This document shows, in pieces, positions 4,216 to 42,037 of a stretch of 58,545 nucleotides of DNA. Every line of letters begins with the position of its first letter. The stretch's first letter is position 1. Under the pieces are notes generated by a model. That model was given only the letters and a program-made list of their open reading frames with translations. It did no database searches and was not told the DNA's origin. This DNA is from an uncultured Bacteroidota bacterium. Its GTDB lineage: Bacteria > Bacteroidota > Bacteroidia > Bacteroidales > WCHB1-69. The DNA is taken from assembly GCA_902786595.1 (NCBI GenBank), contig CADADB010000016.1, forward strand, positions 1-58,545. Direction: 5' to 3'. The translations under genes and the position numbers were made by a program.

Positions 4216-4352
4216 CCCACTTATTTTGCATACTGAAGTGAGGTAGGTTTTGTCGTGTTTTGAATCTTTGGGATGCAGCAAGGAAATATATAAAAAGAGA
4301 ATTGAAAAATACTGATAGTCAATTATATAGAAAAAAAATAAAAGTTGAAAAT

Positions 4353-7300
4353 ATGAAAAAGAGATTATCTATTCTTATGGTCATTTTGTTCCCTGTGATG
4401 TTGTTCGCTCAACCGATGGACACCACCACGATTTTCTGGGAGGATTTCGAAGTGAATCCTATTAAGATGACTGTATCGCATTTGCCTGCCGGCGGTAGCA
4501 CACTTGGTGACTGGCGTCTTGTCGGACCGGATACAAGTTACGAGGGCTGGAATTATATGCTGCTGTATAAGTCCCCCACGCACTCGTTCCACACCCCAGT
4601 GTATTCCACTGCGGGTAACTCTCAAGCAACTACCGAACCTATACCGTTGTCTTCGCCTGGCTTGGAAGTGAACTATGTGTATATTGATTTCGACCATATT
4701 TGTAAAGTTAACCAGTTGGATAACGCTACCATCTACTATCAAGTCGCCCAAGGGTTTGATGAATTTGGAAACTACAACTGGGGGCAGACGAAGATGCTGA
4801 ACTTTGCCAGCAACAGCGCGTTCTACTATGGAGACGCGAAGAGCACCAGCTCTTCAGCTTTCAGCGGTGGTGCCCTGTCGGATAAAATGTATTCTGTTTG
4901 GAACTCGAACTCCATTACTGCCGTTCCGAATAACGATACATGGTGGCGTCACGAGATGATCGACCTTACCCAATTCATCTTCGTGGAAGGTACCAACCCC
5001 ACCCATTTCCGTTTTCAGTTCCGTTTGAACAAAACATCCCCGTCCACATCAGGAACCCAGGACTGTGCTGGTTGGTATATTGACAACCTGTCTGTCCGTT
5101 TGTCCAACTGTGAGTTGATTCGGCCTGAAATCACGATGCAGGCCCCCTTCTTCTACAACACTAACAACTCCTTCACCAACGACGTGGGTCCTTACACCAT
5201 CAAAGCGAAATTGTTCGATAATGACACTATCGCAGAGAATCTGGTCCAATTCAGCTATGAAATCAATAGTGGCCCGACAGTTATTCTCCCCAACACCAAT
5301 GCTTTCACCAGCAATGTGTTGAATGCGAACGGCCACACCATCCAAGCTCAATGGGTGTTGCCGAGTATCTGTTATCAGGATACCATTTATTACCATATTT
5401 ACCTCGAGGACACCCACGGGAGTAACACCCGTTTTGACACATTTCTGGTGGCACACCATAACTATACCAATATCCACCAAAATGATATTCGGATAGACAG
5501 TTTGAATACGATGCCGCACTGTCTGATCACCAACTCCCCTCAGGAGGTGGTGGTGTATTTCACCAACCGAAGTGACGCTGTCAACTCCCCGAATTCCTCA
5601 ACGATGACTTCGGGTAATTTTACCGTGGAGGTTCGCAATGAAAACGGCACTTTGACCCATTCCAGCACTCATACTTGGAGTGGGGACATCTGCTTTGACA
5701 TCCCGTCCTCCTTGTCTTTGGGTACTTTTTTGCCGACCCAGGGGTATAACTATGTGACGGTTTATGTGAACACCCGTAACGGACAGGTTGATGGCTTCCA
5801 TACCAACGACACCATCCGGATTTCGCCTTATTCCTGTGACAGCTTGTTGCAGGGGAATTACACAGTGGGTGGCACCAATCCGGATTTCGCCGACATGACT
5901 GCCGTTAAAGAGGCGTTGGACTACTGCGGACTGGGTGGCCCTGCTGTTTTCCATCTGCGTCCAGGCACCTATACCGACTTTGACTTTGATATGAACTATA
6001 TCGGGCAATCGGCGGAGAACACCATCACTTTCCAAGGCGATGATGTGAACTCAGTGATCGTGACGAATAACAAAACGGATGCCGGTGCTAATGTTTTCGG
6101 TGCGGTGACCTTGGTGAACGTGAAGAACTATGTTTTCAAGAACCTGACCATCCAGGGCAACGATAACGCCACGGCATCAAGAGGTGTGGTGGTTCGCGGA
6201 AACGGAAGCACCAATATCCTTTTTGACGGTTGTAAGATCACGGCTCACAATACACACTCCACGTCAACCTCCAGCTGTGCCGTCAGCCGTACGACAGCAG
6301 TCCCCAATGGTGGCACCAACTATCCTGACACGGTAACCTTCCGCAACTGCTCCATTCTCGGTGGTAACTTCGGTATCCATTATGTGGGTTCCACTAACCG
6401 CAAGAATTTCGTGACCATCGACAGTTGTTTCATATCCTCTTGTTACAGAGGTGTATATACAAACTACACGAACGGCCCGATTTCCAACAACCACATCAAA
6501 CAGGTGAGCTCCTCGAACCCGCAGAATTTCACCGGTATTTATTCGAACTATGTGACGGGTGCCGATATTCATAACAATCTTGTGGACTCTGTCCTCAAAT
6601 TAGAATATGCCATCTATTTAGGATATGCCACCGCAGAGGATTTCTACGTCCGTAACAACCGAATCCACGCCGGTAACGGAAACGCAGGTCTGTATGTCAC
6701 CAACAGCTCTTCCACTACCACCATCACGGGTTATCTGTATAACAATGAAATAATCTTTTACCCGGTGACTGCAGCCAACAGTTACGCAATGCAAATCAAC
6801 AGCAGTAACGGCCTTCGCTTGATTAACAACAGCATATTGGCGAAATCCGATGCTCCGTTCAGCAATTCGGCGGCGTTATACATCTCCAATAACAATACTA
6901 CTTATATATACAACAATATTTTGATGAATCAGGTTGTCTGTAGTGACAACACGGATTATCCTCTCTATTTGAACGGAAACTCCAAGGCGTCAGGTAGTTA
7001 TAATGATTTCATTTCAGGTTCTGGCGTCGTCGCTTTCAAGACGGTGGCCAGAAACTCCATCAGTGAGTTGGAGAGTGCAGACACGAGTCTCTCCCATAGT
7101 ATTTCTTATCTGCCTGCCTTTGTGGATAATACGCAATCGTTACTGCCATCATCATTCACTGGTTTGGAATGTTGGCGCAACAGTGCCGTCATGGCTGATA
7201 TTCGCGGGTTGAACCGTTCCGAGGTTACCTATATGGGTGCCTATGCAGATGCTATTCCGGCTATTGATGCCGCACTTACCGCATTGGTCAGCCCGGCTTT

Positions 7301-10300
7301 GGGCGAATGTCCTCAATCCGCTTATGACATCACGGTTGAAATCACCAACAAGGGTGCGCAAACGATTAATTTCGCCAGCAACGCGGCTGTCATCCATCTG
7401 CATTCCACTGTTTTGAACCTGGATCAGAATATCAATGTGAACACTGGTTCCATCACCGCCTTGAGCAGTATGAACAAGGTCTTGCTTCAGAACGTGAGTA
7501 TTCCGGTGAACCAAGCGGTGGATTTCCTGATTACGATCAACACTTCCGGAGACAACAATCATGGCAATGACACCTTGTCTCAGACGTTCACACTGGAGAC
7601 AATCATTCCTGACTATGAGGAAGATTTCAGCAACGGCACTCAGCAGACTTGGACGATCCAACAGGTGTCAGGTGCCGGTAACTGGACGTTCCAAAACGGT
7701 ACGGGTGTGAACCCGACTATTGCTCCCGTTTACGGTATCGGTCGTCTGTTCTTCAATTCCAAGAATTTCAGCACTACTACCGTTTCCCGCGCAATCCTGC
7801 CGGTTGTGACGTTAACGAATGCTGTGAACCCTATATTGGAAGTGTGGTTCGCACATGATAATACGTCCAACAAAGCTGACGAAGGTGTCACGGTGAAGAT
7901 CTCCACGGATGGTGGCAGCACTTATTCCAACTTGATTCCACAAGGTCAGACGACAGCTCTTCTGAAACGTTACAAACAGACAGCAACCACTCCGGAATGG
8001 CAGTTATACACATTTGACCTCTCCAACTATGTGTCACAAGGTTGTGTCTATATTGCATTTGACGCTGCTGCCAAGGGAGGTAACAACATCAACATCGACC
8101 GTATCCGCGTCAGAAACCTCTATGACAACGATGTGGCTGTGACTAAGATTTATGGAGCAGGTGAAACCCCGACCACCTATTCTATGCGTGGAGTAGTGAG
8201 TGCTCTGGTCAAGAACGAAGGCGCCCAAGGACAGAATAATGTCCAGGTGTATCTGAATGTGACAGGTGCCAATGAGCAATGGCAGGACACCTTGACCATT
8301 CCGAGCTTGCCTTATAATACTGAAACGCTGATCACCTTCCCCGATCATCTCTATAACGTTGCGGAGGTGAAAGATGTGGAGGTCCGTGCCGCCAATGACC
8401 AACACAATATCAACAATGCACAGCATTGGCGTATGGAGACCACACAGAATGTGGCAAACTACGCTGACACGACAACAGATATCGTGCTGCTTGGCGACTA
8501 TAACAATATTATCCGTCCTTGTGTCCGTTATAAAACCAATGAGGAATTGGCTGTGACAGCAGTGAAATACTACTATGACCAGACGTTCATTTCTGATCCC
8601 GCGAATGGTTTCAAGGCCTTTGTGTCTGATGCCTCTGGCAATATTCTCGCCACCTCTGAACTGGTTGATTTCAGCACATTGATGCCTAAAGCGTGGAACA
8701 TTATCCCTATCCATAACTTTGCATTGACCAATACGCAAGATGAGTTCTATGTTGGCCTTGAGATGTTCGCCCATGGTAACTATCTGGCAGCTCAGGTGGA
8801 AACCCCGCTTCGTGATTCTACATTCTTCTACCTGCAAAACGGCGCGTATATTCCCCAAACGACCGGACGTTTCATGATTGGTGTCGTTGTGGACACTCCG
8901 TTTGTCCATGATGTGGCACTTTTGGAACTGGTTCATCCTGTCACGAACTGCGATTTGGGCCACGAGCACCTGAATGTGAAAATCACCAACAACGGTACAA
9001 CAGACATTGTTCCTCCCATTCAATTGCACTATACCATAAATGGAGGCCCGGTTGTCACCGAGGAGTTTTCTGACACGCTTCACAGCCACGAGACCACGGT
9101 GTTCACCTTTGCGAGTATCTATGACTTTACCAATAACTTGATTGATTATGACTCTACCTATGCCATCAGCATTTGGTCAACCAAGTTGCTTCAGGATCGA
9201 CTGACTTTCAACGATTCTTTGGATGTCATAGTGGTGTCCCGCGGCAAATCGCCGATGCCGATAGCTCCAGACACGGTGATTGTGAACTATCACACTACTG
9301 CTACGCTTTCCGCTCAGTTGCCTGCCTCTATCCCGCAGGGTGTTATCGGTTGGTACACCAGCACTGGTTATGAGTCTTGGAATCTGTTGGGTTACAACAG
9401 CACCTATACCACGCCTCTTATCTACTTCGACACCACCTACTATGCAACGGCCAATCCCGGTACTGTTGAAGATGTGATTGTGGGTACAGGTACGGCTTCT
9501 GGTGCAGACCCGTTGACATTTACCAATGGTTACTCTAGAGGACGAATCATCTATTTGGAGCAGGAAATCGGTAATCACGGCACCATCACTTCTTTCGCAC
9601 TCAGTGTGAAAACGGCCTCAAATGCAAGTGCTTCTGCCGGTATCCCGATGAAGATTTATATGAAATGCACTGACGAGAATGTGTTCAATTCCACGAATGT
9701 CAGCTGGGAGGATGAGATTAACAACGCCACTTTGGTGGTGGATGACCGGGTCTTCTTCGATCAGGCCGGCTGGTTCTATTTCGACCTTCTGACTCCGTTT
9801 GATTTCAATAGCGGTAATCTGGTCGTGTTCATGGAAACCAATTGTGCCGATTATTGTACGGGCACAGGCAACCAATGTAACAACTGCGGTCAATATGTGT
9901 CAGGTGCGGCCAGCTATCCGGTGTTCTATAGAACCAACACCTCATCCACACTTTGCCAAAAGAAAGCGGCGAACACAATGGCTCAGATGACGGGCGCTTA
10001 CAGCAATGTCTCCAGCAGACCTAACGCCCGCTTCACGGTTGCCAACCTGGAGTGCGGTAGCGAGAAAGTGCCGATCAGACTCCACGTGCCTGATATCCCG
10101 ACTTATGACGTGGAAACCCAAGAACTGCTCTATCCTGAATCCAGTTGTGCGCTTTATAACGAGCATATCCAAGTTCAGCTCAAGAACATGTTGAATATCC
10201 CGATCCCCGCCAACAAGGTGGTGATTCATGCCCTGTTCAACGGTTCCGAAGTCACCCATACTGTTGCGGACACTTTCGCCCCTGAAGAGGTGAAGATTGT

Positions 10301-13300
10301 GGAATTCGCCACTCCGTTTGACTTCAGCGCTCCTACCGCTAACATCACCTTCAACTATGTCATTTACACCACTATGAACAACGAAGATGTTGTTTATACG
10401 GGTAACGATACCATCTCTGGCAATTTCGTCTCAACGCGTACGGCCTATCTGCCCGACAGCATTGTTTACACGGGTGCATTTACCAACCCATACACCATTC
10501 TGGAACCTCAACACCGTCCTTCAGATATTACCCAATATTATTTCTATGCGAATTTGAATGATGAAACACCCATCCACACCACCACTACGTCTGCCCAATA
10601 TTATACCACACCTGCTTTATATGACACTGCTGTGTACTGGGTATCCGGTAAGACGCAGAGTAGTAACTGTATTACGAAGCGCATTAAAGTGATTATCAAT
10701 GTGTTCAGACCGCAATACGATCTTAGCACGGATGAGTTGATCTATCCGGTTTCCTATCAGTGTGCTAACTCGTTGAGCCCGAACCTGAAAGTCTCGGTGA
10801 CGAATCAGGACACCACCTCTACGTCTGTGATCCCAGCAGGAACGTTCAACTTGAATGCTCATTTCACTGGTTCCAGCAATGTTGACGGTGTCAACTTGAT
10901 TTCCGTTCCGATCTCATCTCTGCATCAGGATACCATCACATACGACAATGGTTTGACGCTTGGCTCTGCCACTCAGAACAAGATTTATCAGTATGTGATT
11001 TACACTACTCCTGCTAATCCGAATTTGCCTGTTTATACACTCAATGACACGATTAGCGGATCCATGTACTTCCCTGCATTGCCGGTCGCTCCTCAAGCGT
11101 TGACCTTTACGGTGCCTTACGGTGGCACGCAGACGGTGACGCCGAACTCCCCGGCATTGAACCACTACTATTTCTATGAGAATTCAACTGATGAGTCCGC
11201 AATGGCGGAAGGTAACTCTTTCACTACGGATCCGATCTATGAACCCACCACATATTATTACAGCGGACGTATTGAATCTGCCGGTTTCAATGCTTCTGTG
11301 ATTGCAGGGGTAGGCAATGTGACCAACCAGACTAGTGCAGCGCCGTTCACCTTCAATAACGGACACTCGTACGCGAAGATTCTTTATAACCGTGAAGACA
11401 TGGGTGGTGCGGAAGGTCGTATCGACAGCATCTACTTCCATGTGTGTGGAACAGAGAACAATGGAGTTGGAATTCCTATGAAATTCTGGATTACAAATAC
11501 GGAAGATGCGCAAAACATCGGAACCGGTTCCACTTCAGTGAACTGGCCTGCCGAGACAGCTAACGCTACCCTGATATTTGACGGGGAGATGTATCTTGAC
11601 CAGACGGGTTGGGTTGGATTCCCAGTGAATGGCGGCTTCCAGTATGAAGGTGGAGGTTTGTTCTTGTATGCCGAGCATAATTGCGGCGATGCCAGCTGTA
11701 TCACGGCTTACGGTATCAACCCCACTCCGAAATTCACCAACTCCCAAATGACGAATACAACCAAGAAAGTGCTGACCAAGGCCCAGAACACCGAGTTGAC
11801 TGCGGCCGCCAACTTCTCTGCCTCCAGCTATCGTTTGAATACAAAGTTCAAGATGAATTATACTTGCGAGTCGCCGAAGGCCACGATTACCATCAACACC
11901 ACGGTTCCTCAACATGATGTGGGTGTGATTGCCATCACTGCTCCTGTTACCCAGAACAACAATTTCACAAATAGTGAAAATGTGACGGTCACGTTGCAGA
12001 ACTTCGGTACACAAGCCGCTTCTAACTTCCCGGTTTCCTATCAGTTGAGCAATGGTACACCTGTTACCCAGAACTACAGCGGTTCGTTGGCAGCAGGAGC
12101 TACGGCAACGATGTCTTTCTCCACGAATGCCGATCTGACGAGTGTCTATTTCCCGACTCCATTCAGAGCTTACACTGGCCTCACTTCTGATACCTATCAT
12201 CCTAATGATACGACCACTATCTATTTGAGTGCAGAGGATCCTTGTTTCTCACGTCCTTTGTCAACGGCCGAAGGCGCTCATATCAGCAATGTGACATTCG
12301 CCGCCCTTAATAACGGAACTGCAGCTCCTTATACGGGTCATCCTGCAACACCAGGAAACGGCATGTATTCGGATTTCACTCAAACAGTTGCTCCCGTGGA
12401 ACTTATTCTTGGTCAAGAATACACACTCTCTGTCACACATGCTTTCACAGGAACGACGACGAAGGCCGTGTTCAAACGTGCCTATATCGACTACAACCGT
12501 AACGGTGTGTTTGAAGATTCAGAGTTGATATTCTCCACTCCGTCTATCCCTGCCGGGGATGTTAACGCCACCACCTCTGATTATGTGAATGTGCCCACAA
12601 ATGCTGAAATCGGTCTGACCCGTATGCGTGTGATTTGTGCCGCCACTAATGTTACCAGCCCTTGTACGTTCTACAATGCTGAAGGTGAAACGGAGGATTA
12701 TGCCGTGTTGTTGAGCGCTCCAATGGAGATAGACCTCGGTATTCCTGCCATTTTGCATCCGGTCGGTGACATTTGCGCCGACACGAACGCCAATATGCGC
12801 GTCAATGTGCGTAACTATGGTACGGCGACCCAAACCTTGAGCATGAGCAATCCGATGACTATCACGGCCACATTTACGGGTGCAGTTCCCGCCACCTATA
12901 CCAAAACGGTGGAAAGCGGCACTTTGACGCCTAACAGTGAAATGACGGTGGTGATCCCGAATGTGAATGTAAGTGCTTTGGGCACCTATAACGTTTCTGT
13001 GCAGCTTACTTACGCCAGTGACCAGTATCTGACGAACAACACCCGTGCCACGGTTGCTGAAGTGTCAGATTTGACGGTTGAACAATTGCCGTTTGTGGAG
13101 CCCTTCTCTCCGGGCAGTTCTCTCGAGGAACCGCAATTGCCATCTGATTGGGAACTCTCTTACTCAAATAGCAATTACAAATGGCAAGAGTATATTGGAG
13201 CTTCACCCAACAACGGCGTGGGCGGTGGTCCTGCCCATGACCATACTTTCGCTGGCACGTTCCAGCAGAATTATGGTGGTTATGCGGCTGTGGCCGGTGT

Positions 13301-14279
13301 GAATAGTGCGACCAACGCCAATAAATGGACCTCTTTGACCAGCGGTTGCGTTAATATGCACTATAGAAACGGCTATCCGTCAGAACTATACTTCTACAAG
13401 TATTTTGCCGGCGCTTCTAATGCTGATTTTGAGATGAGAGTGGAAACGGGTTCCGGAAGCTATTATCAAACGATTGAACAACTCACAAAAGCCGATGGCG
13501 GACAAGTCGGAGGTGATGATGTTTGGAATGAACATCTTGTTGTTCTCCATACGGTTGATGAAGTGGCCCGCCTTAGATTCACTGTCACAAATCAACGTTA
13601 TAGAATTGATCCCAGCATTGACGACATTAACCTCATTATAGGTTTGCCCGACATGGCTGTGAACCGCATTATTTATCCTGAAGACAAGTCTGTCTCTACG
13701 GAATGTCTGACCGTGAACAGTGTGATTAATCCGGTAATTGAGCTTTACAATAACGGCAATTCCGCTGTGGAAGGTTTTGATGTCATCTTTAATGTGGGTA
13801 CGGGTAATGACCTTGTGACGGAAACGGAGCACATTGATTATCACCTTGAGCCGGGAGATTCTTTGATCTACACGAGCACTCACGACTTTGTGGTCACCAA
13901 TCTCACGCACAATTGGGAAGTCAAGGCCACCGTGGTTATCGAAGATGACAAGTACGAGTATAACAACACCAAGCGTGTCCTTACTTGTACGGATGTCTCC
14001 ATTGATGACTATACGGAGAACAGTGTCTATCTTGGACAGAACGAGCCGAACCCGGCTGTTGTGAGCACGCGTATCCCCTATTCAGTGCTGGAACCGGGCA
14101 AAGTGACGCTTGAGGTGACCAATTCCGCAGGACAGGTGTTATACACGACCACTCAGGATGCTGAATTAGGGACCAACTATATTGAGTTGAACACCAACAA
14201 TTTTGCTGCTGGAGTGTATTATTACACCCTTTATTTCAAGGATACCGTATTAACCAAGAAGATGGTTGTTGAAAAATAA
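4353..14279 (+). CDS. Giant secreted multidomain protein with T9SS type A sorting domain
   Basis: About 3308 residues from the ATG at 4353, chosen because it opens a clean signal peptide (MKKRLSILMVILFPVMLFAQ). An upstream in-frame extension to 4260 is charged and lacks signal character. Order (approximate residues): MAM/jelly-roll-like domain 20-255 (GTQDCAGWYIDNLSVRL); Ig/CARDB-like strands; parallel beta-helix of right-handed type 499-957, with repeated N-N turns; jelly-roll 1085-1260; many CARDB-like modules; a duplicated Cys-bearing domain at 1708-1894 and 2316-2500; GEVED domain 2702-2788 (YIDYNRNGVFEDSELIF); MAM-like 2912-3099; and a Por-secretion type A C-terminal domain 3225-3308 (GQNEPNPAVVSTRIPYS ... 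KKMVVEK). The CTD predicts export by T9SS, removal of the domain and attachment to the cell surface. The beta-helix suggests polysaccharide binding or cleavage, but no catalytic residues were identified. It appears monocistronic, with a strong terminator downstream. Confidence 0.88.
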   Translation: MKKRLSILMVILFPVMLFAQPMDTTTIFWEDFEVNPIKMTVSHLPAGGSTLGDWRLVGPDTSYEGWNYMLLYKSPTHSFHTPVYSTAGNSQATTEPIPLSSPGLEVNYVYIDFDHICKVNQLDNATIYYQVAQGFDEFGNYNWGQTKMLNFASNSAFYYGDAKSTSSSAFSGGALSDKMYSVWNSNSITAVPNNDTWWRHEMIDLTQFIFVEGTNPTHFRFQFRLNKTSPSTSGTQDCAGWYIDNLSVRLSNCELIRPEITMQAPFFYNTNNSFTNDVGPYTIKAKLFDNDTIAENLVQFSYEINSGPTVILPNTNAFTSNVLNANGHTIQAQWVLPSICYQDTIYYHIYLEDTHGSNTRFDTFLVAHHNYTNIHQNDIRIDSLNTMPHCLITNSPQEVVVYFTNRSDAVNSPNSSTMTSGNFTVEVRNENGTLTHSSTHTWSGDICFDIPSSLSLGTFLPTQGYNYVTVYVNTRNGQVDGFHTNDTIRISPYSCDSLLQGNYTVGGTNPDFADMTAVKEALDYCGLGGPAVFHLRPGTYTDFDFDMNYIGQSAENTITFQGDDVNSVIVTNNKTDAGANVFGAVTLVNVKNYVFKNLTIQGNDNATASRGVVVRGNGSTNILFDGCKITAHNTHSTSTSSCAVSRTTAVPNGGTNYPDTVTFRNCSILGGNFGIHYVGSTNRKNFVTIDSCFISSCYRGVYTNYTNGPISNNHIKQVSSSNPQNFTGIYSNYVTGADIHNNLVDSVLKLEYAIYLGYATAEDFYVRNNRIHAGNGNAGLYVTNSSSTTTITGYLYNNEIIFYPVTAANSYAMQINSSNGLRLINNSILAKSDAPFSNSAALYISNNNTTYIYNNILMNQVVCSDNTDYPLYLNGNSKASGSYNDFISGSGVVAFKTVARNSISELESADTSLSHSISYLPAFVDNTQSLLPSSFTGLECWRNSAVMADIRGLNRSEVTYMGAYADAIPAIDAALTALVSPALGECPQSAYDITVEITNKGAQTINFASNAAVIHLHSTVLNLDQNINVNTGSITALSSMNKVLLQNVSIPVNQAVDFLITINTSGDNNHGNDTLSQTFTLETIIPDYEEDFSNGTQQTWTIQQVSGAGNWTFQNGTGVNPTIAPVYGIGRLFFNSKNFSTTTVSRAILPVVTLTNAVNPILEVWFAHDNTSNKADEGVTVKISTDGGSTYSNLIPQGQTTALLKRYKQTATTPEWQLYTFDLSNYVSQGCVYIAFDAAAKGGNNINIDRIRVRNLYDNDVAVTKIYGAGETPTTYSMRGVVSALVKNEGAQGQNNVQVYLNVTGANEQWQDTLTIPSLPYNTETLITFPDHLYNVAEVKDVEVRAANDQHNINNAQHWRMETTQNVANYADTTTDIVLLGDYNNIIRPCVRYKTNEELAVTAVKYYYDQTFISDPANGFKAFVSDASGNILATSELVDFSTLMPKAWNIIPIHNFALTNTQDEFYVGLEMFAHGNYLAAQVETPLRDSTFFYLQNGAYIPQTTGRFMIGVVVDTPFVHDVALLELVHPVTNCDLGHEHLNVKITNNGTTDIVPPIQLHYTINGGPVVTEEFSDTLHSHETTVFTFASIYDFTNNLIDYDSTYAISIWSTKLLQDRLTFNDSLDVIVVSRGKSPMPIAPDTVIVNYHTTATLSAQLPASIPQGVIGWYTSTGYESWNLLGYNSTYTTPLIYFDTTYYATANPGTVEDVIVGTGTASGADPLTFTNGYSRGRIIYLEQEIGNHGTITSFALSVKTASNASASAGIPMKIYMKCTDENVFNSTNVSWEDEINNATLVVDDRVFFDQAGWFYFDLLTPFDFNSGNLVVFMETNCADYCTGTGNQCNNCGQYVSGAASYPVFYRTNTSSTLCQKKAANTMAQMTGAYSNVSSRPNARFTVANLECGSEKVPIRLHVPDIPTYDVETQELLYPESSCALYNEHIQVQLKNMLNIPIPANKVVIHALFNGSEVTHTVADTFAPEEVKIVEFATPFDFSAPTANITFNYVIYTTMNNEDVVYTGNDTISGNFVSTRTAYLPDSIVYTGAFTNPYTILEPQHRPSDITQYYFYANLNDETPIHTTTTSAQYYTTPALYDTAVYWVSGKTQSSNCITKRIKVIINVFRPQYDLSTDELIYPVSYQCANSLSPNLKVSVTNQDTTSTSVIPAGTFNLNAHFTGSSNVDGVNLISVPISSLHQDTITYDNGLTLGSATQNKIYQYVIYTTPANPNLPVYTLNDTISGSMYFPALPVAPQALTFTVPYGGTQTVTPNSPALNHYYFYENSTDESAMAEGNSFTTDPIYEPTTYYYSGRIESAGFNASVIAGVGNVTNQTSAAPFTFNNGHSYAKILYNREDMGGAEGRIDSIYFHVCGTENNGVGIPMKFWITNTEDAQNIGTGSTSVNWPAETANATLIFDGEMYLDQTGWVGFPVNGGFQYEGGGLFLYAEHNCGDASCITAYGINPTPKFTNSQMTNTTKKVLTKAQNTELTAAANFSASSYRLNTKFKMNYTCESPKATITINTTVPQHDVGVIAITAPVTQNNNFTNSENVTVTLQNFGTQAASNFPVSYQLSNGTPVTQNYSGSLAAGATATMSFSTNADLTSVYFPTPFRAYTGLTSDTYHPNDTTTIYLSAEDPCFSRPLSTAEGAHISNVTFAALNNGTAAPYTGHPATPGNGMYSDFTQTVAPVELILGQEYTLSVTHAFTGTTTKAVFKRAYIDYNRNGVFEDSELIFSTPSIPAGDVNATTSDYVNVPTNAEIGLTRMRVICAATNVTSPCTFYNAEGETEDYAVLLSAPMEIDLGIPAILHPVGDICADTNANMRVNVRNYGTATQTLSMSNPMTITATFTGAVPATYTKTVESGTLTPNSEMTVVIPNVNVSALGTYNVSVQLTYASDQYLTNNTRATVAEVSDLTVEQLPFVEPFSPGSSLEEPQLPSDWELSYSNSNYKWQEYIGASPNNGVGGGPAHDHTFAGTFQQNYGGYAAVAGVNSATNANKWTSLTSGCVNMHYRNGYPSELYFYKYFAGASNADFEMRVETGSGSYYQTIEQLTKADGGQVGGDDVWNEHLVVLHTVDEVARLRFTVTNQRYRIDPSIDDINLIIGLPDMAVNRIIYPEDKSVSTECLTVNSVINPVIELYNNGNSAVEGFDVIFNVGTGNDLVTETEHIDYHLEPGDSLIYTSTHDFVVTNLTHNWEVKATVVIEDDKYEYNNTKRVLTCTDVSIDDYTENSVYLGQNEPNPAVVSTRIPYSVLEPGKVTLEVTNSAGQVLYTTTQDAELGTNYIELNTNNFAAGVYYYTLYFKDTVLTKKMVVEK

Positions 14280-37366: not shown

Positions 37367-37822
37367 TTATTTTTTCCAGAATCTTTCTGTGATATCTTCG
37401 GAATGCCCGTTGGTGTAGCGGTATAGACGCTGGTTGGTGGTGCGGGAACGCAGACCTCCAAGTTCAGGTTTGTATCCTCCAACCTTAACGTAGTCGAATA
37501 GCTGGGCATTGCGGGGTAACATGGCATTGCCCGAATACCACGCCACTTTAAGTTTTGAGTGCTGCCGCAGATGCTTGGCAAGCGTCTCCACGTCGTTGGC
37601 TTGACCGTCACCCCCCATGAAACAAACACAGGTGATCTGCTGTCCGTATTTCTTCAGAAGAGAATCCAATGTGCGATCATTCAAAACATCCCCTATGTCT
37701 TCACGAAGATGTGGACTGTGGCAGCCCACACATCGGTGCGGACAATTAGTGAGATTCACCGCGAGGGTCACCTCATCGGGAATCTCCTGGAAGACAATAT
37801 CGTAGTTGTAGTATTTTAACAA
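37367..37822 (-). CDS. nrdG: NrdG, anaerobic ribonucleotide reductase activase
   Basis: 151 residues, normal for NrdG. This radical-SAM enzyme installs the glycyl radical on NrdD. The cluster motif is C-P-H-R-C-V-G-C (CX3CX2C), preceded by LAVNLTNC. CVCFMGGDG supplies the glycine-rich SAM-binding strand, and KVAWYSG follows. It lies downstream of nrdD on the same strand, separated by 187 nt of repeat sequence, and probably shares the cobalamin-riboswitch-controlled transcript unless the repeats add a promoter or end. Confidence 0.93.
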   Translation of the reverse strand: MLKYYNYDIVFQEIPDEVTLAVNLTNCPHRCVGCHSPHLREDIGDVLNDRTLDSLLKKYGQQITCVCFMGGDGQANDVETLAKHLRQHSKLKVAWYSGNAMLPRNAQLFDYVKVGGYKPELGGLRSRTTNQRLYRYTNGHSEDITERFWKK

Positions 37823-37949: not shown

Positions 37950-38020
37950 TCATATTACGCAATCTCTAAATCGGGCAACCCCTAATAATTATCCATTATC
38001 CATTATCAATTATCCATTAA
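37950..38020. repeat. Dispersed composite element, copy A, overlapping the nrdD stop codon
   Basis: About 70 bases containing CATATTACGCAATCTC, then ACCCCTAAT, and ending in TTATCCA heptamers. The last units form the nrdD stop codon and final Asn-Gly codons. A similar copy in the same orientation ends at 40573. Confidence 0.6.
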
Positions 38021-40100
38021 AGTGTTCATAGTGGCGGCGGCCGGCTTCCTCCTGGCGGGCCTGGGAGAAGCTGCTGACACGTTTCATATATCCGATAACG
38101 CGGGTAAGGTAATCCACGTTCTTGCTGTGGCATTCAGGGCATTCATGGAGATAGCGCTTGTCGATATGACCACAGTCGTTGCAAACGGTGTTGGGGATAT
38201 TAAAGGTGAAATAGTTGCACCCTTCTTGGGCAGCCACGCGCAGCAGCTGGCGGTATTGCGCTTGCGAGAGGTGTTCCTCAAGGTTGGCATGCAGAGCGGA
38301 ACCACCGGTGAGGTGAGCAATGTAGCGTTTGCCATGCAGACGGAATTTGTCAATCAGATTCAAGGAATCGTCTTCCACGCGGTAGAAGTAGCTGTTGTAG
38401 CAGTCGCGAGGCACTCGGTAACCGTCTTCGCGATCCCATTTCGCGTGCTTGACGCCCACATTTTCAGCAGGAATCATCTCGCAGTTGAAGAGTAACTCTT
38501 TGCTCTTATATTGGTGGTTGTATTTTTCGATCAAACCGAGCACTTGTTCCACAAAGTGCTGGTATTGCGGGTTGTCATCAATGGGGATGCTGAGGAATTC
38601 AGCGGCTTCCACTAACCCATTTACGCCGATGGTGAGGTATTGACGGTTAATGGCGATATAGCCGGCATCGAACAGCGGAAGCATTCCTTTGGATTGCAGG
38701 TATTTGAGGTTCTCGTTGTAGGCAATCTGTACTTTGTGCATCAAATCGATGACCTCGCCGATGAACTGGAATTGCGGGATATTGTTGCGGCATTCGTATT
38801 GGATGCAGCGGTTGATGTTGATGGTAAGTACGCTCTTGGAACCCGTGGAGACACCGCCGGCGCCAAGGGTGTAGCTGAAACCGTTGTCCTGGATTTCGTT
38901 GCGCAGACGGCAGCAGCTGCTCAAAGAGTCGGCATTGTCGCTCACGTATGTGAAGAAGGAGTGGCCGGCAGCGTACATCTCGGCCGTGAAATCGGCGTAT
39001 TCCGTATCAATGATGTCCCCATCTTTGGAAAGCAGAGCCATGGTTTCAACGGGGAAAGTGAGCACGGAGCGTGTGCGCTCTTGGTTAAACCAGCGCATAA
39101 AGCGTTTCTGCAGCCAGCTGAGCGACTCCCAGATGGGTTTGGTGCCGTCGGGGAAGCGGAACTCGCCGAAGAGACTTTCGAAGTAATAGCGGTCGTAATA
39201 AGCTACATTCCAGAATACGGATTGGAAGTTGCGCGCACCGGTGGGCTGGTTGATGGAATAGACTACCTGTTCAAAGCTGTCGGTGATCATTTTGTCGATT
39301 GTGCGCTGGCGCAAGGAGAGATCCACCACCTTGTCGCTGTTCTGATAGTAATCGTCACCGTATTCCTTACGGATGAAATAGTCCATATACATGAGGAATT
39401 CCGGGGTGGCGCAGGCGCCGCTGAGCATGCTGGAGACCATGAAGACCATGTTGATGAAGCCGCCGCAGTAGGATTTGAGATTTGTGGGTGCGGAGGCGTT
39501 GCCGCCGATGCTGCGTGTGCCGTCCAGCAGCCATGGATACATGGTGATGGAGGCGCAGTAGTTGGCGATGCTGGTCTCATCGTTCTTATAGATGAAATGG
39601 TTGTTGAGCAGGTACAAATACTTGTCAGACAATTCCTTGCCGTAAAGGTCTTTGATTTTGTCGCACAGCATCCGGCGGTTCAGGCGGATGAAGTTCGACT
39701 TAGGCAGTTCACCGATAAGGGTGGCGATGTTTTTCTTCTCCACGTTGGCGTTGGCGTCGTACTTACTGCCGGTGGCGGCGTTGGAGGCGTTGCAGTAGTT
39801 GATGAGGAAGTCCAGTTTCTCCTTGACTTCGCGGTCTTCATAATGACGTTGACGGTAGAGGATGTAGGCCTTGGCCACCTCGTAATAGCGTTCGGCCATG
39901 AGAGAAACCTCCACTTGGTTTTGAATCTCCTCCACTGAGATGCCGTCGTGGATTTTCAGGCGGCTCATGACGTTGACGAGCACTTCCTGTGTGGCGAAGC
40001 TGTTCACGGAAAGGAACGCCTTGGCGATGGCGTTTTTGATTTTGTCGGCCGAGAAGGGCTCCCGCTTGCCGTTTCGTTTGATAATGTACAATTGATCCAT
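38010..40100 (-). CDS. nrdD: NrdD, anaerobic (class III) ribonucleoside-triphosphate reductase
   Basis: 696 residues, close to the family norm of about 700. It makes dNTPs from NTPs without oxygen in the cytosol. An N-terminal ATP-cone (about 1-95; IIKRNGKREPFSADKI) should give allosteric control. The catalytic barrel has SNFIRLNRRMLCDKI and SCCRLRNE. The C-terminal zinc site is C-N-D-C and C-P-E-C around GHIDKRYLHE. The glycyl-radical motif is RVIGYM, about 24 residues from the end. A cobalamin riboswitch precedes it. The last codons overlap repeat DNA, so the C-terminal Asn-Gly may be repeat-derived. Confidence 0.96.
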   Translation of the reverse strand: MDQLYIIKRNGKREPFSADKIKNAIAKAFLSVNSFATQEVLVNVMSRLKIHDGISVEEIQNQVEVSLMAERYYEVAKAYILYRQRHYEDREVKEKLDFLINYCNASNAATGSKYDANANVEKKNIATLIGELPKSNFIRLNRRMLCDKIKDLYGKELSDKYLYLLNNHFIYKNDETSIANYCASITMYPWLLDGTRSIGGNASAPTNLKSYCGGFINMVFMVSSMLSGACATPEFLMYMDYFIRKEYGDDYYQNSDKVVDLSLRQRTIDKMITDSFEQVVYSINQPTGARNFQSVFWNVAYYDRYYFESLFGEFRFPDGTKPIWESLSWLQKRFMRWFNQERTRSVLTFPVETMALLSKDGDIIDTEYADFTAEMYAAGHSFFTYVSDNADSLSSCCRLRNEIQDNGFSYTLGAGGVSTGSKSVLTININRCIQYECRNNIPQFQFIGEVIDLMHKVQIAYNENLKYLQSKGMLPLFDAGYIAINRQYLTIGVNGLVEAAEFLSIPIDDNPQYQHFVEQVLGLIEKYNHQYKSKELLFNCEMIPAENVGVKHAKWDREDGYRVPRDCYNSYFYRVEDDSLNLIDKFRLHGKRYIAHLTGGSALHANLEEHLSQAQYRQLLRVAAQEGCNYFTFNIPNTVCNDCGHIDKRYLHECPECHSKNVDYLTRVIGYMKRVSSFSQARQEEAGRRHYEHFNG

Positions 40101-40189
40101 AAAATGGTTAAGGTTTTGGTTGTTAATAAAAACAGCTCAGGGATGACAATGGCCGGTGAATCACCGCTCTCGTTTGCTCTTAGTCCCGA

Positions 40190-40375
40190 AAGCCACGAAT
40201 GCAGGTCGCAGGCAGGTCTTCTGGCTTGTCCCCGCTTTTCTCCGCCTTCCCGACATGATTTTGTCAGTGACTTATTGGAGCTAGCGCAAAATGGAACTCA
40301 CAGCTACGGGTATAGCCGCTGATTCTCACAGCGTTCCCTATTAATCCGTTCAGAACCTGAACCCGTGCAAAAGTA
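40190..40375 (-). promoter_or_regulatory. Cobalamin (B12) riboswitch controlling nrdD(G), with its promoter
   Basis: Read on the minus strand, the order and sequence of conserved blocks fit a cobalamin riboswitch. A -7 box TACTTTTG+C lies at 40375-40368. Then come GGTTCAGGTTC, TTAATAGGGAACGCTGTGAG, the pieces CCCGTAGCTGTGAG, AGTCACTG, GGGAAGGCGG, and the B12 box GCCAGAAGACCTGCC (40225-40211). Between the aptamer and the nrdD ATG (40100) lie about 110 nt with a hairpin CGGTG-ATT-CACCG, which may belong to the expression platform. No clear T-tract terminator is visible there, so translational control is more likely. B12 would be expected to switch the gene off. Confidence 0.92.
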
Positions 40376-40448
40376 ATATTTCCCGCCGATGGTTTTTGGG
40401 TTGCTCAAATTTTTTATAAACAAGGTTATTAACAATCCTGGTTATCAA

Positions 40449-40583: not shown

Positions 40584-40591
40584 TACCTTTG
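40584..40591 (+). promoter_or_regulatory. -7 box of the C1 aminopeptidase gene
   Basis: TACCTTTG followed by CC matches TAnnTTTG, 39 nt before the ATG at 40631. Confidence 0.6.
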
Positions 40592-40630
40592 CCGCCAGTT
40601 TTTGAATGTTTAATAAAAAATAATAAATCA

Positions 40631-42037
40631 ATGAAAAAATTATTCCTTCTCGTGTGTGCGGCGGCTTGTGTGATGGCCGTCCAGGCGCAAAACATCACGA
40701 AAGATGGTGGACTGACCATGCAGCAGATAAGCACGCTGCGTGCTTCCTTTAACGCTGATCCGACCAACAAAGCACTGCGTAACGCTATCAATAGCAATGA
40801 TATCAGCAAGTTAGCAGTGAATTATGACAACAACACCGCTTTTGACGCCCATTTGTCGAATACGGTGCCTTCCAAGGCCATCACCAACCAGGAGTCTTCC
40901 GGCCGTTGCTGGATGTTCACGGGTATGAACGTGCTTCGTAACAAGGCCATCCGTAAACACAACCTGCCCGATGACTTCCAGTTCTCACAGTGCTACACCT
41001 TCTTCTGGGACCAGCTGGAGAAGGCCAACCTTTTCCTGCAGGCGATTCTCGACAACCGCGCCAAGTCCATGGAGGACGAGACCGTGCAGTGGCTTTTCAA
41101 GAACCCGATCGGTGACGGTGGACAGTTTACCGGTGTGGCCAACTTGATGACCAAATATGGTGTGGTGCCGAAAGACGTGATGCCCGAAACCTACAACAGC
41201 AACCACACTTCCCGTATTTCGGAGCTTATCAAGCTGAAATTGCGTGAAGATGGCCTTGTTTTGCGTGAAATGTCCAACAACAAGGGCGTCACCGAGCAGA
41301 AATTGCAGGCCACGAAGATGGCTATGCTGGAGACGATTTACCGTATGCTGGCTTATTCGTTCGGGGAACCCCCGACAGAATTCACCTGGACACAGCGCAA
41401 CGCCAAAGGCGAAGTGGTGAGCACAGAGAAATACACTCCGATGTCTTTCTACAACAAATTCGTGAATGAGGATTTCTCAAAGTATTATATGATCATGAAC
41501 GACCCGACTCGCGACTACTACAAGGTGTATGAGATTGAATATGACCGTCATGTGTATGATGGGCAGAACTGGAAGTTCCTGAACCTGCCGATGAACGAGA
41601 TTGCCGCCATGGCCATCGCCTCCATCAAGGACAGCACGATGATGTATTTCTCCTGCGATGTGGCGAAGTTCCTCGATCGTGACAAAGGTTACATGGACGT
41701 GAACAACTACGATTACGGTTCCTTGTTCGGCACCACTTTCGGGATGGACAAAAAACAGCGTGTCAGCACATACGCCAGCGGCTCATCGCACGCCATGACG
41801 CTTTGCGGTGTGGATCTTGACGCCAACGGCAACCCCACGAAGTGGATGGTGGAGAACAGCTGGGGCAGCAATCGCGGTCACAATGGCTTTCTCATCATGA
41901 CCAACGAATGGTTCAACGAATATATGTTCCGTTTGGTGGTGGAGTCCAAGTACATCCCCGCTGCCACGCTTAAACTTTTCGACCAGAAACCTATCCTATT
42001 ACCTGCTTGGGATCCGTTGTTCGCCCCGGAGGAGTAA
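40631..42037 (+). CDS. pepC: Exported C1-family aminopeptidase (PepC/bleomycin hydrolase-like)
   Basis: 468 residues from the ATG at 40631, chosen because it opens the signal peptide MKKLFLLVCAAACVMAVQAQ. The mature part has the papain-fold catalytic set: Gln and Cys in NQESSGRCWMF, His in GSSHAMTLCGV and Asn in VENSWGSN. The length and the terminal region fit bleomycin-hydrolase-type aminopeptidases, which trim N-terminal residues from peptides. The signal peptide places it in the periplasm or outside, as is common for Bacteroidota members, where it would assist peptide feeding. The gene stands alone with its own promoter. Confidence 0.93.
   Translation: MKKLFLLVCAAACVMAVQAQNITKDGGLTMQQISTLRASFNADPTNKALRNAINSNDISKLAVNYDNNTAFDAHLSNTVPSKAITNQESSGRCWMFTGMNVLRNKAIRKHNLPDDFQFSQCYTFFWDQLEKANLFLQAILDNRAKSMEDETVQWLFKNPIGDGGQFTGVANLMTKYGVVPKDVMPETYNSNHTSRISELIKLKLREDGLVLREMSNNKGVTEQKLQATKMAMLETIYRMLAYSFGEPPTEFTWTQRNAKGEVVSTEKYTPMSFYNKFVNEDFSKYYMIMNDPTRDYYKVYEIEYDRHVYDGQNWKFLNLPMNEIAAMAIASIKDSTMMYFSCDVAKFLDRDKGYMDVNNYDYGSLFGTTFGMDKKQRVSTYASGSSHAMTLCGVDLDANGNPTKWMVENSWGSNRGHNGFLIMTNEWFNEYMFRLVVESKYIPAATLKLFDQKPILLPAWDPLFAPEE

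Follow-up and report, generated by a model that had tools for sequence, protein, structure and literature searches.

The window, that is, the whole stretch of 58,545 nucleotides that was analysed, carries on its minus strand two neighbouring genes, one for a class III (anaerobic) ribonucleoside-triphosphate reductase, nrdD, and one for its activating protein, nrdG. Both score above the curated cut-offs of their families, nrdG barely so, and the nrdG reading frame as listed begins with TTG, 187 nt downstream of nrdD. A domain search of the window's NrdD returned the NRDD and ATP-cone domains and no others. Upstream of nrdD lies a divergent gene, and the following features could be located at the locus:

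37367..37822, minus strand: nrdG, activating protein (TIGR02826, 155.7 bits, cut-off 151.7)
38010..40100, minus strand: nrdD, class III reductase (TIGR02827, 956.9 bits, cut-off 568.3)
40125..40132, minus strand: U-rich run UUUUUAUU, abutting the anti-P13 strand (sequence; conserved in the window's leader cluster)
40133..40144, minus strand: anti-P13 strand AUCCCUGAGCUG, complement of the P13 5' arm and L13 (duplex of -11.9 kcal/mol)
40169..40199, minus strand: P13 hairpin with loop L13 (CGGG, 40188-40185) (sequence and folding)
40194..40381, minus strand: cobalamin riboswitch aptamer (RF00174)
40307..40310, minus strand: CCCG in loop L5, partner of L13 (sequence; kept in 45 of 45 leaders)
40368..40375, minus strand: -7 box of Bacteroidetes type, TACTTTTG (sequence and recurrence of TAnnTTTG in relatives)
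40589-42037, plus strand: divergent gene for a Peptidase_C1_2 protein (domain match)

Short repeats of the type gataatggataatgg flank nrdD on both sides (window 40560-40540 and 38020-37990, minus strand).

A sequence-only reading of this DNA had placed a B12 aptamer on the minus strand at 40190..40375. When the Rfam cobalamin model was run on that strand, it matched almost the same stretch (40381-40194) from one end of the model to the other (positions 1-189 of 189), with 101.1 bits and an E-value of 3.6e-24 against a gathering score of 31.5; among all Rfam families scanned, RF00174 was the only one to match the window at its own gathering score. The conserved blocks of the aptamer are all present in the order in which that reading had quoted them, and its gap of about 110 nt to nrdD is exact, since 110 nt separate the 3' strand of P1 from the nrdD ATG. 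The -7 box that it had seen at the aptamer start corresponds to TACTTTTG (40375-40368, minus strand), located at the 5' end of the RF00174 match and conforming to TAnnTTTG, which we take to be the consensus of the Bacteroidetes-type -7 box. Between -45 and +25 of the aptamer start, TAnnTTTG occurs in 43 of 43 nrdD riboswitches, where the background of these loci would lead one to expect 1.0; the 43 are 43 of the 51 riboswitch-bearing nrdD loci among the best 80 of 576 (see below), the others being L111, L114, L116, L122, L135, L143, L144 and L165. By eye, no canonical -33 box was seen at the usual spacing upstream of the TACTTTTG box, and a sigma-70 scan returned a single site, on the strand opposite nrdD.

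The part of the leader that follows the aptamer was compared among relatives. Forty-six leaders passed the patterns set for P1 and for the NrdD N-terminus, so that loci with a slightly deviant P1 or N-terminus lie outside the set, and 45 were usable (L077 has a wrong start call); at 70% identity they form 13 clusters. The element GCUUUCGGG of P13/L13 is found in 45 of 45, and the complement CCCG/CGGG of the L5/L13 kissing loop in the window and in the same 45 of 45. In a wider set of 43, the L5 pattern is present in 42 and the exact L13 motif in 27, with CGGG visible by eye in 14 of the 16 others. The nrdD leader is thus confirmed as a genuine full-length cobalamin riboswitch, for which binding of cobalamin is predicted from its sequence.

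Downstream of P13, a second strand is able to pair with the 5' arm of P13 and with L13. Taking one representative per cluster, the summed energy of this anti-P13 duplex is -151.9 kcal/mol, against -105.5 kcal/mol (sd 6.5) for dinucleotide shuffles, which corresponds to a z of -7.1 over the 13 clusters; all 13 representatives fall below their own shuffle mean, and a reversed arm of equal composition, used as control, gives a z of +2.0. In 24 of the 25 leaders listed the 3' strand of the helix ends 22-37 nt before the AUG (54 nt in L035). Two competing folds are therefore well supported across the leader group, and the anti-P13 helix, which resembles an antisequestor, would exclude the kissing hairpin. 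The predicted probability of the alternative helix averages 0.61 over the 45 leaders and is 0.29 in the window. The fold of the entire leader (z -1.39) is unremarkable, as is that of its downstream part alone (z +1.10).

How this exchange might reach the gene could be followed in some of the leaders. In four clusters (L013/L017/L020, L026, L033 and L067; z -1.5 to -3.0) the strand that is set free is able to base-pair across the AUG, which is suggestive of translational control in them, and in L012 it completes a hairpin shortly before the start (z -3.0). The mean z of the start-codon hairpin over the 25 leaders listed is -0.38, and in the window's own cluster no stable hairpin of this type is formed (z +0.7 to +1.5 in the six members listed). 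When L13 was blocked in folding, mean start-codon accessibility passed from 0.29 to 0.28 in the 45 leaders and was 0.18 both ways in the window. Hiding of the start codon was considered as a general mechanism and is not claimed for the window, because accessibility is unchanged and its cluster has no stable competing hairpin. An intrinsic terminator was likewise set aside: two terminator-like sites were found, both on the strand opposite nrdD. How control is finally exerted in the window's clade is hence not visible, and the platform folds are weak in the window itself. The nrdD start codon sits inside a small CCAU-UUU-AUGG hairpin (ccattttatgg, window 40111-40097, minus strand), and a similar sequence recurs in several members of the window's leader cluster.

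The sequence-only reading had also predicted a nrdJ gene elsewhere in the genome, together with uptake or synthesis of B12. The assembly (2.84 Mb in 40 contigs, 93% complete) does encode one full-length NrdJ (TIGR02504, 548.5 bits, cut-off 399.95), a reading frame of 906 aa which is the sole match in the genome to the barrel domain of class I/II large subunits; no small subunit of class I was detected there. As to the vitamin, the prediction is in keeping with one FecCD permease and with two further cobalamin riboswitches before genes for surface proteins. B12-binding domains occur in three proteins, of the MetH-like, methylmalonyl-CoA mutase and D-ornithine aminomutase types. NrdJ needs adenosylcobalamin. 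A search with PF02572, the one adenosyltransferase family covered (CobA/BtuR), gave no match in the genome, which counts against the OFF model set out below. The first of the two additional riboswitches (102 bits) precedes the gene for a 370-aa DUF5074 beta-propeller protein; BtuG proteins have a beta-propeller, according to the available part of PMC8941943, and by analogy this one may be BtuG-like. The second (93.2 bits; L008 9092-9278, plus strand, contig C2 of the same genome) precedes the gene for an 802-aa protein (9497-11905, plus strand) in which a type IX secretion tail is the sole Pfam domain to score above its cut-off; this may be a B12-capture protein of a new type.

The nrdD leader very likely works as a cobalamin riboswitch of the common OFF kind, with NrdJ used at high B12 and NrdD kept as backup, so that vitamin B12 probably decides which reductase is made. 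Transcription would begin at the aptamer. With ample cobalamin, probably adenosylcobalamin, this aptamer would fold around its ligand, L5 would pair with L13 and the P13 hairpin would be held; this would exclude the alternative helix between the P13/L13 strand and its complement, which lies 32 nt ahead of the nrdD AUG. Less nrdD, and probably also less nrdG, would then be expressed, and the cell would depend on the B12-dependent NrdJ. If cobalamin ran short, the alternative helix could form and nrdD would be made as the backup reductase. What we infer here is that the leader binds its ligand, that the direction is OFF, that nrdG is affected too, and at which level control acts. That B12 governs the choice between NrdD and NrdJ had already been proposed in the sequence-only reading, and it is supported by the aptamer, by the presence of NrdJ, by the lack of a detected class I enzyme and by an association between riboswitch and NrdJ, which is not significant once kinship is considered.

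The arrangement is widespread among relatives. In a set of 148 genomes, the window's own included, NrdD scored over the TIGR02827 cut-off in 64 (66 matches), and 56 of the 66 genes have a cobalamin riboswitch directly upstream on the same strand. The distance from the end of the riboswitch to the start of the HMM match is 339-426 nt in 49 of these 56; the remaining seven are loci L015, L026, L027, L037, L039, L040 and L043. For the NrdD genes without a riboswitch among the matches listed, the upstream stretches were scanned individually: in one (G128) a DUF4465 gene intervenes between riboswitch and nrdD, in two (G061 and G078:C42, outside the 56) the nearest riboswitch lies about 3.7 kb upstream, and in seven (G004, G054, G046, G085, G078:C20, G050 and G105) the scanned stretch showed none. 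NrdD-like matches below the cut-off in G129, G091, G094 and G083 have a riboswitch upstream in four of four cases. As for the other classes, NrdJ is above its cut-off in 133 of the 148 genomes and class I NrdB was detected in one; G063 has a fragment of NrdJ only. In two genomes whose NrdD passes the cut-off, G105 and G121, NrdJ gave no match whatsoever; the nrdD of G105 is without a riboswitch and that of G121 has one. Contrary to what the model would lead one to expect, G121 yielded neither NrdJ nor class I NrdB, for which a gap in the assembly is a possible cause. The G121 riboswitch before nrdD scores 112.4 bits (L032 3687-3884, minus strand), in a genome that is 96% complete.

Two variants of the arrangement were observed. 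In G128 (L052 1997-2225 and 783-1853, minus strand) the riboswitch is followed by the DUF4465 gene, which is lipoprotein-like, and then by nrdD; DUF4465 is termed a B12-binding domain in the title of a 2026 paper (PMC13398666), so that a single leader may serve both B12 capture and nrdD in this genome. In Bacteroides oleiciplenus and B. timonensis two RF00174 riboswitches stand back to back, one directed toward nrdD and the other toward its divergent neighbour (L146 1846-2050, minus, and 2142-2360, plus; L149 1840-2044, minus, and 2136-2354, plus).

The link with NrdJ was analysed in NrdD loci taken from GTDB contigs, of which the best 80 of 576 were used. The nearest NrdD relatives in this set come from Bacteroidales MAGs of rumen and gut and are at most 98% identical, which places the window's organism among the Bacteroidales; riboswitch-nrdD loci occur also in genomes of Bacteroides, Alistipes and Parabacteroides. 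Of the 80 loci, 51 have a riboswitch upstream in the coding orientation (17, 14, 11 and 9 per batch of 20). With L131 excluded, its upstream sequence being absent, 79 loci remain, and NrdJ is present in 49 of the 51 genomes with the switch versus 18 of the 28 without it (Fisher's exact p = 0.00035, kinship ignored). Seen from the other side, the switch is absent in 10 of the 12 NrdJ-less genomes (L105, L106, L108, L112, L113, L119, L128, L137, L157 and L163). A search for the class I small subunit was negative in the 11 of these 12 that it covered (L116 was outside the set) and in G105 and G121, and detected one in 1 of its 30 genomes. With neither NrdJ nor a class I small subunit detected, the NrdJ-less genomes checked seem to have NrdD as their sole reductase, and that such genomes mostly lack the switch is as the OFF model predicts.

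The rule is not strict: 18 genomes of the 79 loci have NrdJ and an unswitched nrdD, and a switch without a detected NrdJ is seen in L116 and L148, as well as in G121 among the 148 relatives. Absence of NrdJ from draft assemblies is weak evidence, and L114, a close relative of L116, has NrdJ. On a quick NrdD tree of 81 rows, the window included, in which 27 of the 78 inner branches are weak, the state with neither riboswitch nor NrdJ requires five changes, at least four of them forced by starred branches. A kinship-aware test on independent pairs is not significant (median p 0.375): among six pairs differing in NrdJ, a mean of 3.6 go with the model, 1.0 go the opposite way and 1.4 show no difference. 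The direction fits the model, and the test has little power.

Compatible with this OFF model is a variant with the same riboswitch and the same logic in which control is mainly transcriptional, by intrinsic or factor-dependent premature termination; it is a serious possibility, if one that we would not favour. In the available part of PMC6143338, the B12 riboswitch of locus 2 in B. thetaiotaomicron gave about 70-fold repression at 37 nM B12 by qRT-PCR; this repression speaks for the OFF logic as such and, being a fall in the mRNA of riboswitch genes, also for the transcriptional variant, but decay of untranslated mRNA could explain it as well. Read mapping found transcriptionally active cobalamin riboswitches in 10 of 15 Gram-negative taxa, as reported in the part of PMC12121620 available, and the lack of a start-codon hairpin in the window's leader cluster points in the same direction. 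Against this, the nrdD strand has no terminator-like site, and several related leaders do have hairpins at or near the start codon.

The weak platform could also mean that the aptamer is intact and has become uncoupled from nrdD in the window's species, a relic. The expression platform of the window is indeed unconvincing in folding, and its anti-P13 duplex, taken alone, is equalled by 38 of 200 shuffles; but an aptamer of full length and 101.1 bits, and a promoter box and an L5/L13 complement that are retained in divergent relatives, make such a relic highly improbable. Reverse polarity in the window's clade, with the alternative helix and UUUUUAUU forming a ligand-free terminator so that B12 raises nrdD, might be read from the U-rich run after the anti-P13 strand in the window's cluster (by eye also in L027 and L073), but is very hard to credit, for a short stem would enclose a loop of some 40 nt, the terminator scan is negative on the nrdD strand, the run is missing in most other leader clusters, such a polarity makes no sense for a B12-independent enzyme beside NrdJ, and it leaves unexplained why NrdJ-less genomes are mostly without the switch.

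A different question is whether B12 could also touch the protein. With a B12 photo-affinity probe in B. thetaiotaomicron, BT_1998, annotated as an anaerobic ribonucleoside-triphosphate reductase, was captured in both screens with log2 enrichments of 3.66 and 2.82, beside 3.37 and 5.10 for the B12 enzyme MetH; the capture passes without comment in the available part of the paper (PMC8941943). By analogy it could be imagined that B12 acts twice on the class III reductase of Bacteroidales, on the mRNA by the riboswitch and on NrdD itself, in which case NrdD already made would be restrained by corrinoid binding and its further synthesis halted by the riboswitch; we regard this as a long shot. Unspecific labelling of BT_1998 is the likelier reading, because 16 proteins were captured in both screens, several of them without a known link to B12 (PMC8941943, same part). 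Class III reductases are not known to have a B12 site.

The kind of regulation described here is already known. The sequence-only reading had cited the Streptomyces nrdAB case, and rightly: Borovok et al. (2006) reportedly described a nrdABS riboswitch through which B12 shuts off the B12-independent reductase when NrdJ can work. That system differs in its target, a class Ia enzyme, and in its host, an aerobe, and nearer precedents are offered by nrdDG of Desulfovibrio vulgaris, Desulfuromonas and Propionibacterium acnes, for which the same arrangement and model have been in print since 2004 and 2013. B12 elements before nrdDG of the first two were reported by Rodionov et al. 2004 (PMC545781); these species belong to another phylum than the window, and the passages available give no expression platform. 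In P. acnes, cobalamin riboswitches were annotated in 2013 before nrdAB and nrdDG (PMC3848588); the element before nrdDG, the presence of NrdJ and the regulatory reading are the same as here, whereas P. acnes also has class I nrdAB, none of which was found in the window's genome, and, by the same partial source, its nrdAB transcription largely stops before the first gene. 'Ca. Chlorobium antarcticum' is likewise an anaerobe with a cobalamin riboswitch directly upstream of nrdD, but is a member of the Chlorobi, and its authors, in the part available, call the control mainly translational (PMC8620254). The riboswitches of cobamide transport in Bacteroides share phylum and Rfam family with the one described here, and B12 repression was measured there, but their targets are genes for B12 uptake, not a reductase (PMC6143338, PMC8941943 and PMC12751083, each in part). 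The available text of a regulon survey with a class for isozymes of B12-dependent enzymes contains neither 'nrd' nor 'ribonucleotide reductase' (PMC3766115). No description of an nrdD riboswitch in Bacteroidales was found in open-licence PMC full texts, a body to which supplements and subscription papers do not belong, and no priority is claimed. What is added here is the breadth of the arrangement in Bacteroidales, the association with NrdJ and the conserved alternative helix of the leader.

If the OFF model holds, the choice between two enzymes for DNA precursors in gut and rumen Bacteroidales would be placed under a shared and scarce vitamin, and competition for B12 may extend to dNTP synthesis, beyond methionine and propionate metabolism. 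Elsewhere in the window, a reading frame of 3339 aa (4260-14279, plus strand) with matches to GEVED, Ig-like and type IX secretion tail domains encodes a giant secreted surface protein.
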